Assembly (NCBI RefSeq): GCF_041146795.1
Contig: NC_135187.1
Span: 6,683,556 to 6,747,555 of the forward strand
Source of the DNA: Maylandia zebra
Lineage: Eukaryota > Chordata > Actinopteri > Cichliformes > Cichlidae
Direction of reading: 5' to 3'
Length of the DNA stretch: 64,000 nucleotides
Positions 48,101 to 50,130 of the stretch are shown here, one piece after another. How positions within the stretch are numbered: the stretch's first letter is position 1; every line of letters begins with the position of its first letter. The position numbers and the translations under genes are program-made. The notes under the pieces were generated by a model, which did not search any database, was not told the origin of the DNA, and saw nothing but the letters and a program-made list of their open reading frames with translations.

Positions 48101-50130
48101 TCACGATCAACAGTCACTTGGACGTGTAGAGTGGGGAGCTGGGCGGTTAAAAACCAGCTCATGTTTGACCGGACAGCACTGGACATTTGCATTATCACAT
48201 GCGCCTCTTTCAGGTCATCTCTAGAAAAGTTCAAGCCTGTGGTGCATGTGTGAAAACAGCTATAAAGTTAAAAATTATCAGATGGTCTGGAGCTGTCAGG
48301 GTTTGGACTCCTGATGAGTATCTGTGCTGCTCTATTTTGTGGCTAAAGTCACATCGAGTCCATCGGTCAAATTTAGCTCAACAGACTGTCCTACATGGCA
48401 CAAACAAGCTCACTCCTGCCATAAAATCCCAGCATGAAACCCTCTGGGACCTGAGCTGACTGATTCTGACTCAGTACGATGCTTCAAAGCCAGGCTCACT
48501 TTCCTTTGTTGTTCTTTCCTTTCGCAAACACTGGGAAAAATGTTTTCTTAAACAGTTTGACTAAAAACTGAAACAGTATAATCAGCTTCACTTTTGTTTC
48601 CCAGGTCAAAGTGGGGCAGGAAACAACTGGGCTAAAGGTCACTACACGGAGGGGGCCGAGCTGGTGGATTCAGTCCTGGACGTGGTGAGGAAAGAGGCCG
48701 AGAGCTGCGAGTGCCTGCAGGGTTTCCAGCTCACGCACTCTCTGGGAGGAGGCACCGGCTCCGGCATGGGAACCCTGCTCATCAGCAAGATCAGAGAGGA
48801 GTACCCCGACCGCATCATGAACACCTTCAGCGTGGTGCCCTCCCCTAAGGTAGAGCATTGCCCCACAGGATGCACTTTTTAAAAATGACCTTTCAGTGCT
48901 TACTTATGGTAGTTTTAGAAGTCTGAGCAAAGGCTGCACAATAAAAGATCAGAAAAGTGAAGCCGTAAATCTGTGTTCGCTCTAATAATCAGCACGAGGC
49001 AAAGTCTGTAAGACCTCAGCACCTCAGTAAACACTTTCTTGATGACTTTGTGTTTTCAGTTGCTAGTTTTAAGTCATTTTGAAAATAATATAATGCTCAT
49101 TTTGTAAATTATGTCCCAACAACAGTCAGAAATGAAGATAAAGCTGAGTATGAGTGACAGGTTGGCATATTTCAGTGCCCATATATCTGTGTTCAGCACT
49201 TTGAACTATGGGAAATAAATCTACTGCACAATAAATCGCCTGTTTGTTTATAATAAATGTTCATGCTATTTCTGCATCAGCCATGAGTATCGACGTTTCC
49301 TCTCGCTCTGTCTTCAGGTATCAGACACGGTGGTGGAGCCCTACAACGCCACGCTGTCCGTTCACCAGCTGGTAGAAAACACCGATGAGACCTACTGCAT
49401 TGACAACGAAGCTCTTTATGACATTTGCTTCCGCACCCTCAAGCTCACTACGCCCACCTACGGCGACCTGAACCACCTGGTTTCGGCCACCATGAGCGGC
49501 GTGACCACCTGTCTGCGTTTCCCCGGGCAGCTGAACGCCGATCTGAGGAAGCTGGCCGTCAACATGGTGCCCTTCCCTCGTCTCCACTTCTTCATGCCCG
49601 GCTTCGCCCCTCTCACCAGCCGGGGGAGCCAGCAGTACCGCGCCCTCACCGTGCCGGAGCTCACCCAGCAGGTGTTCGACGCCAAAAACATGATGGCGGC
49701 TTGCGACCCTCGCCACGGACGCTACCTGACGGTGGCCGCTGTGTTCCGTGGGCGCATGTCCATGAAGGAGGTGGATGAGCAGATGCTGAACGTCCAAAAC
49801 AAGAACAGCAGCTACTTTGTGGAGTGGATCCCCAACAACGTCAAGACGGCCGTCTGCGACATCCCGCCGCGAGGCCTCAAGATGGCCGTCACCTTCATCG
49901 GCAACAGCACGGCCATTCAGGAGCTGTTCAAGCGCATCTCCGAGCAGTTCACGGCCATGTTCCGCCGCAAGGCCTTCCTCCACTGGTACACCGGCGAGGG
50001 CATGGATGAGATGGAGTTCACCGAGGCAGAGAGCAACATGAACGACCTGGTGTCAGAGTACCAGCAGTACCAGGACGCCACCGCCGAGGAGGAGGGGGAG
50101 TTTGAGGAGGAGGTGGAGGAAGATGCCTAA
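42137..50130 (+). CDS. tubb: Beta-tubulin, class I (TUBB/TUBB5 type)
   Basis: GTPase subunit that pairs with alpha-tubulin to build microtubules. Five exons: 42137-42193, 46123-46231, 47714-47824, 48605-48849 and 49318-50130, giving 444 aa, the family length. It begins MREIVHIQ, the tetrapeptide MREI that mediates autoregulated tubulin mRNA decay. The GTP-binding loop GGGTGSG is at 140-146. Residue choices [31 protein letters not shown] and [10 protein letters not shown] match vertebrate class I rather than IVb, though the tail [16 protein letters not shown] resembles class IV. Adjacency to flot1 supports TUBB. The first three introns are at the usual vertebrate positions; the fourth, after Lys174, is extra. 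Exon 5 is markedly GC-rich compared with its surroundings, giving long antisense shadow frames. Intron 1 (42194-46122) is long and I recognise no gene or repeat family in it. Confidence 0.97.
48850..49317 (+). other. tubb: extra phase-0 intron in tubb
   Basis: 468-bp intron between SVVPSPK and [10 protein letters not shown]. The donor is cctaag|gtagag (weak) and the acceptor ctcgctctgtcttcag|gta (strong). Reading through would add ten residues and stop. Vertebrate beta-tubulin genes normally encode this stretch in one uninterrupted last exon. Confidence 0.85.

Follow-up and report, generated by a model that had tools for sequence, protein, structure and literature searches.

The beta-tubulin gene in the window, by which we mean the whole 64-kb stretch of DNA analysed here (G000:C21:6683556-6747555; host genome of 962 Mb in 63 contigs), carries an extra intron directly after Lys174, and five of the nine beta-tubulin genes found in this genome are interrupted at that identical site and in the identical phase 0. 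This recurrence shows that Lys174 is no one-off but a site at which an intron is either ancient or has been acquired more than once. We favour an old intron that was handed down by descent and lost repeatedly, an explanation to which we give about an even chance, over repeated gain as its close rival.

The window gene (copy C21) is complete according to spliced alignment and translation; it spans 42137-50130 (+ strand), and its coding sequence is divided among five exons. Exon 1 (42137-42193, 57 nt) encodes residues 1-19 and ends at the donor AAG|gtaaga. It is followed on the same strand by exon 2 (46123-46231, 109 nt), exon 3 (47714-47824, 111 nt), exon 4 (48605-48849, 245 nt), whose last codon is the AAG of Lys174, and exon 5 (49318-50130, 813 nt), which closes with the stop codon TAA. 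Removal of all four introns leaves a coding sequence of 57+109+111+245+813 = 1335 nt, corresponding to 444 amino acids and the stop. With four coding introns as opposed to the canonical vertebrate three, the gene departs from the expectation of exactly three.

The spliced protein aligns end to end, over residues 1-444, with tubulins of solved structure. Among the best 60 of 67 matched sequences, the top match is 6i2i_B ('Tubulin beta chain | Beta1-tubulin', 1016.1 bits) and the runner-up is beta-4B (1014.2 bits), which leaves class I only a narrow margin. Two exons upstream of the gene and on the opposite strand match flotillin-1 much more strongly than flotillin-2; at their outermost, the exon-like pieces of this neighbour extend over 34801-39704 (- strand). 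Because the best solved match is of class I and flotillin-1 adjoins the gene, we identify it from its sequence as a class I beta-tubulin (TUBB), in agreement with the first-pass annotation. The protein body, the tail apart, fits this class, and the C-terminal tail (14 residues) is in our estimation closer to class IV tails than to that of human class I. Human FLOT1 and TUBB are neighbours too. The neighbour set of tubb in the window further comprises a BTB/POZ exon (380-1291), a kinesin motor exon (8154-8945) and C2H2 zinc fingers (23019-23351), all on the - strand. We take the set of BTB/POZ, kinesin, flotillin-1 and tubb to resemble ZBTB22, KIFC1, FLOT1 and TUBB of human 6p21, and the region 380-39704 may be the fish counterpart of the MHC-linked block. 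A reverse-transcriptase fragment (PF00078) of a retroelement was also observed in the window at 33737-34492 (+), near a long CA/TG repeat at ~32930-33190.

The extra intron (48850-49317, + strand, 468 bp, GT-AG) lies in phase 0 between the codons of Lys174 (AAG) and Val175 (GTA), with exactly the coordinates and frame that the first-pass annotation had given. The accompanying claim that splicing is needed holds as well, in that read-through of the intron adds a peptide of ten residues and then meets a stop. The junctions read CCT AAG|gtagag ... ctgtcttcag|GTA TCA. Pyrimidines make up 17 of the 20 nt before the acceptor, and the last 70 nt of the intron contain one yTnAy-like site only, which lies rather far away at 54 nt from the acceptor. 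Skipping of exon 4 would break the frame. The donor gtagag had been described as weak; this is correct for its intron side only, and the donor, which together with its exon side matches the consensus MAG|GTRAGT at 6/9 positions, is ordinary for its family. The 35 beta-tubulin donors scored in the nine genes (that of C19 intron 1 was added manually) have scores between 5 and 9, with the donor of intron 3 in the window gene likewise at 6.

The intron looks real as far as its sequence can tell, and a chance origin of an intron-like stretch is disfavoured because four paralogs have an intron at this very position. As part of the explanation by descent, and with the same evenly balanced confidence, we consider it an ordinary constitutive GT-AG spliceosomal intron. 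It most likely has no effect on the protein, although a functional tubulin can only be made once it has been spliced out.

The count of nine genes is based on a search of the genome for the tubulin family (PF00091), which gave 68 matches. From these matches 12 regions were fetched, and they contained eight full beta-tubulin genes besides that of the window; L017-L020 were left out as other tubulins, with a match of 28.7-53.6% per aligned piece. All nine genes were modelled by spliced alignment, permitting GT/GC-AG introns in any phase, with exon 1 of C19 located separately from the initial alignment. The three introns of the canonical vertebrate beta-tubulin gene, after residues 19, 55 and 92, are kept in every one of the nine at the same positions and in the same phases. 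The Lys174 intron, in contrast to this canonical structure, is present in C21 (the window gene, 468 bp), C11 (111 bp), C6 (83 bp), C9 (119 bp) and C19 (81 bp), and it is absent from C18, C12, C4 and C5. The carriers comprise two class-I genes (C21 and C11, whose best solved matches are of class I), two class-IVb-like genes (C6 and C19, best matches beta-4B-like) and one class III/V-like gene (C9). The C9 protein is nearest to beta-3 chains, with a chain named beta-6 scoring lower, and from its tail we take it to be class V; the classes of C18, C12, C4 and C5 are likewise assigned on our own assumption. As a control, another 16 pieces from this search that span the site, on C14, C16, C20 and C22, were read; all of them are alpha-tubulin-like, with an identity of 43.6-48.3% to the protein of the window gene, and none of the 16 is interrupted there.

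Further departures from the canonical structure were observed in two of the carriers. C9 (L010) has an additional intron of 616 bp after residue 131, near an intron position of plant beta-tubulin genes, and C19 (L012) has two, of 82 and 81 bp, which split codons 282 and 397.

These data speak against a lineage-specific gain peculiar to the window gene, as the first-pass annotation had envisaged, since site and phase are shared by four of the eight other beta-tubulin genes, including the other flot1-linked class-I copy, and by a gene outside the fish (L021), unless each of these introns was gained separately. Nor do we see the opposite extreme that it had considered, namely an intron common to every vertebrate TUBB gene, with four of the nine beta-tubulin genes here being without it.

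A search of a genome collection returned 16 stretches that fit a pattern. Six of them encode relatives, and one of the six, L021, spans the site as an animal-like gene. L021 is a contig of 3449 bp (JAADDM010000100.1) within a MAG filed as a gammaproteobacterium, and it encodes beta-tubulin residues 1-308 with introns after 19, 55 and 174 and none at 92, the equivalent of fish exons 3 and 4 being a single exon of 356 nt. Its Lys174 intron measures 127 bp and has the ends AAAG|gtaagc...tctag|GTG. Going by its sequence, L021 is a stray contaminant in the bacterial MAG, and its source is probably an invertebrate because intron 92 is kept by all nine of the fish genes. Histones gave no match in this MAG, and the single weak match to the actin family is uninformative, as bacterial control genomes match too. 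Among 369 genomes of the same class, the search returned L021 itself only. No relative was found in viral contigs (one search gave no pattern match and another gave 12), nor in plasmids and phages.

According to our preferred explanation, the Lys174 intron was most likely present in class-I tubb before the flot1-tubb block was duplicated. As in the window, the C11 tubulin gene is preceded by flotillin-1 exons on the other strand, and with a pS of 0.59 (dS ~1.15) and a pN of 0.008 between them, C21 and C11 have the appearance of long-standing duplicates, both with the intron. Because both flot1-linked class-I copies carry it, the intron is probably older than the block duplication, which by arrangement and divergence would probably be the teleost genome duplication. 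We posit that the intron probably also predates the split of the vertebrate beta-tubulin classes and that several paralogs have lost it since. Recombination with partial cDNA removes 3' introns exactly, and it is the likely route of loss here because the Lys174 intron is the 3'-most one in four of the five carriers and the three 5' introns are kept in all nine genes. Where the intron was kept, splicing would rely on the AAG with which exon 4 closes, given that the intron side of the donor is weak; where it was lost, the codon is AAA. A dispersed repeat would have been inserted into the window copy of the intron at a later time.

Descent is supported by the same site and phase occurring across three kinds of class, in five of nine genes, and in L021. 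Each of the nine coding sequences offers 26-37 MAG|R sites, and four independent hits on a single one would have a probability of about (1/26)^3, near 6e-5, on the assumption of equal sites, which overstates the case as sites may be unequal. The six Lys174 introns show no alignment beyond that of shuffled sequences when 15 pairs are allowed for (the best pair was C21-C6, with 10 of 200 shuffles as good), which is expected of old introns but fits independent gains equally well. Synonymous similarity shows no excess near codon 174, a result that speaks against recent spread and fits independent gains too. Against an old intron stand the human beta-tubulin genes with their four exons and the rigorous conservation that PMC6471244 ascribes to the vertebrate gene structure, since an ancestral intron would have had to disappear from each of the tetrapod beta-tubulin classes. 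It also counts against this explanation that L021 is a single contig and that loss as such does not lead one to expect AAA in four of four non-carriers.

Because five of the seven inner branches of the beta-tubulin gene tree are open, intron changes can be counted on it only poorly; the fewest are three with all positions and four with positions 1+2. Forcing the five carriers into one clade costs 18.6 log units and is disfavoured (p-AU 0.0285). The tree is without the C21+C11 pair, the pairing of which costs 13.3 log units and is not rejected (p-AU 0.137). At synonymous sites, C21 is closer to C9 (pS 0.48) and C6 (0.52) than to C11 (0.59), perhaps through shared high third-position GC. The pairs C6/C4 and C12/C19 are likewise not rejected (p-AU 0.123 and 0.161), and tblastx of the fetched flanks revealed no linked gene for either of them.

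Repeated independent gain, in several fish beta-tubulins and separately in the L021 lineage, would have taken place at the proto-splice site AAG|GT, exposed wherever Lys174 is encoded by AAG. We regard it as quite possible, though at somewhat less than an even chance, and a single episode of intron insertion in ray-finned fish may lie behind these gains. This explanation draws on the Lys174 codon, which is AAG in all five carriers and in L021 and AAA in all four non-carriers, giving AAG|GT in the former genes and AAA|GT in the latter (Fisher p 0.008 over the nine genes, for a contrast noted after seeing the data). Lysine codons over the nine genes number 82 AAG versus 38 AAA, and third-position GC amounts to 0.70-0.83 in carriers and 0.61-0.73 in non-carriers, a difference that accounts for part of the codon contrast. 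For the carriers, one would expect splicing to constrain the final base of the exon. The AAA of non-carriers may be ancestral, may have drifted after loss, or may reflect avoidance of a false donor. Independent gain is also in line with the short length of four of the five introns (81-119 bp), with the low standing of a single carrier clade, and with the three other non-canonical beta-tubulin introns of this genome, which imply that gains do occur here. It would, however, need about four hits on one and the same MAG|R site, and another in L021, and the flot1-linked pair C21/C11 has the intron in common. Moreover, CAG|G at Gln131 conforms to MAG|R in all nine genes and is interrupted in only one.

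Published parallels in teleosts lend further weight to repeated gain. The part of PMC12357937 considered here describes intron gains in teleost slc26a1 and slc26a2, with new introns of Eurypterygii sitting where other slc26 genes have introns. These resemble the Lys174 intron as extra introns of ray-finned fish, some of them at positions used by paralogs; they were dated by many outgroup fish, whereas the Lys174 carriers are known from one genome and one family of near-identical proteins. In fish serpins, the introns gained measure 68-178 bp and lie at MAG|N sites; for two of the seven introns tabulated in the portion consulted, AAG|GT is found in some or all listed species (PMC2746811). Several fish receptors, MC receptors and others, have one inserted intron position in common, according to the section of PMC3151243 used here. 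Like the Lys174 intron, the serpin and receptor introns are short, of the GT-AG type and located at MAG|N sites in ray-finned fish. In the passages considered, both studies conclude gain, in the MC-receptor case because zebrafish and tetrapods are without the introns, while for Lys174 the gene in L021 hints at a greater age (PMC2746811; PMC3151243).

A further idea, which we put forward only tentatively and consider rather unlikely, is that Lys174 is an intron hot spot. The strictly conserved Lys-Val pair would maintain an AAG|GT target, the intron would recur or persist across animals, and intronless copies would be held at AAA against a false donor. If this were true, the presence of the intron would go together with a synonymous codon choice throughout the family, and many fish would depart from the textbook vertebrate beta-tubulin gene with three introns.

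A single gain in an early ray-finned fish beta-tubulin, spread to the paralogs by gene conversion and with L021 as a separate coincidence, appears improbable. The near identity of the paralogous proteins (0.993 for C21/C11, 0.993 for C6/C4 and 0.986 for C12/C19) would make conversion possible. Carriers are, however, no more alike near codon 174 than elsewhere, the between-minus-within difference being 0.043-0.058 there versus 0.052 over the whole CDS; the Lys174 intron sequences are unalignable, and L021 requires another event. Recent gene conversion is thus disfavoured on sequence grounds.

Still less probable is a lone lineage-specific gain in the window gene, for example by repeat insertion. 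In its favour, the intron is outside the canonical three and contains a dispersed repeat (49012-49160 at its outer limits, with most matches at ~49021-49118). With 40 of 118 candidates scored, the intron matches itself and at least 39 further places of its own genome at 72-87% identity, and seven of these 39 copies, compared pairwise, have pieces of ~97-165 bp in common. The matches among the scored candidates are confined to positions 163-311 of the 468 and reach neither splice site, no inverted repeats but only two short direct repeats occur in 48800-49360, and the site and phase are common to four paralogs and L021. A repeat or transposon (introner) as the source of the intron was consequently rejected, as the copies stop short of its ends and inverted repeats are lacking; the comparison with genome repeats that had been recommended for finding this source did find a repeat, but one inside the intron. 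The repeat accounts in part for the window intron being longer than those of the other four carriers (81-119 bp).

That the stretch is no spliced intron at all, but a product of a pseudogene or an assembly fault, is barely credible in view of five intact exons, GT-AG ends, a full-length protein match, a pN of 0.008 versus a pS of 0.59 to the C11 copy and four more genes interrupted at the site.

An earlier description of the Lys174 intron in a vertebrate beta-tubulin was not found in the literature searched, a scope that excluded most subscription journals, while intron turnover in fish is known as a kind of event. The portion of PMC6471244 considered here, which deals with tubulin introns as species markers, holds the exon-intron structure of beta-tubulin genes to be rigorously conserved through the vertebrate subphylum. 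Five of the nine genes analysed here contradict that statement, and the third intron, which serves as the marker of that study, is kept in all nine (PMC6471244). The interest of the Lys174 intron lies in its record of intron turnover. A family of near-identical proteins in which one site is interrupted in some copies only provides a clean setting for weighing intron loss against repeated gain, and the split between AAG and AAA offers a marker that can easily be traced through further fish.

Other contigs outside the fish yielded minor observations. Open frames in three bacterial MAG contigs, L024:4662-5153 (proteobacterium), L025:3780-5135 (Fibrobacteres, 505-kb contig) and L026:797-1225 (Prolixibacteraceae), begin with what by eye resembles a signal peptide, and towards their C-termini they share 34-44 residues with the C-terminal helix and tail of beta-tubulin at 91-100% identity. 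Two of the three were compared with Pfam at an E of 0.01 and matched no family; from their sequences, these frames look like mimicry or capture of a tubulin tail. In a Myxococcales MAG contig (L022:2424-5053), neighbouring stretches that are 48% and 30% identical to beta-tubulin form a tandem bacterial tubulin-like pair.
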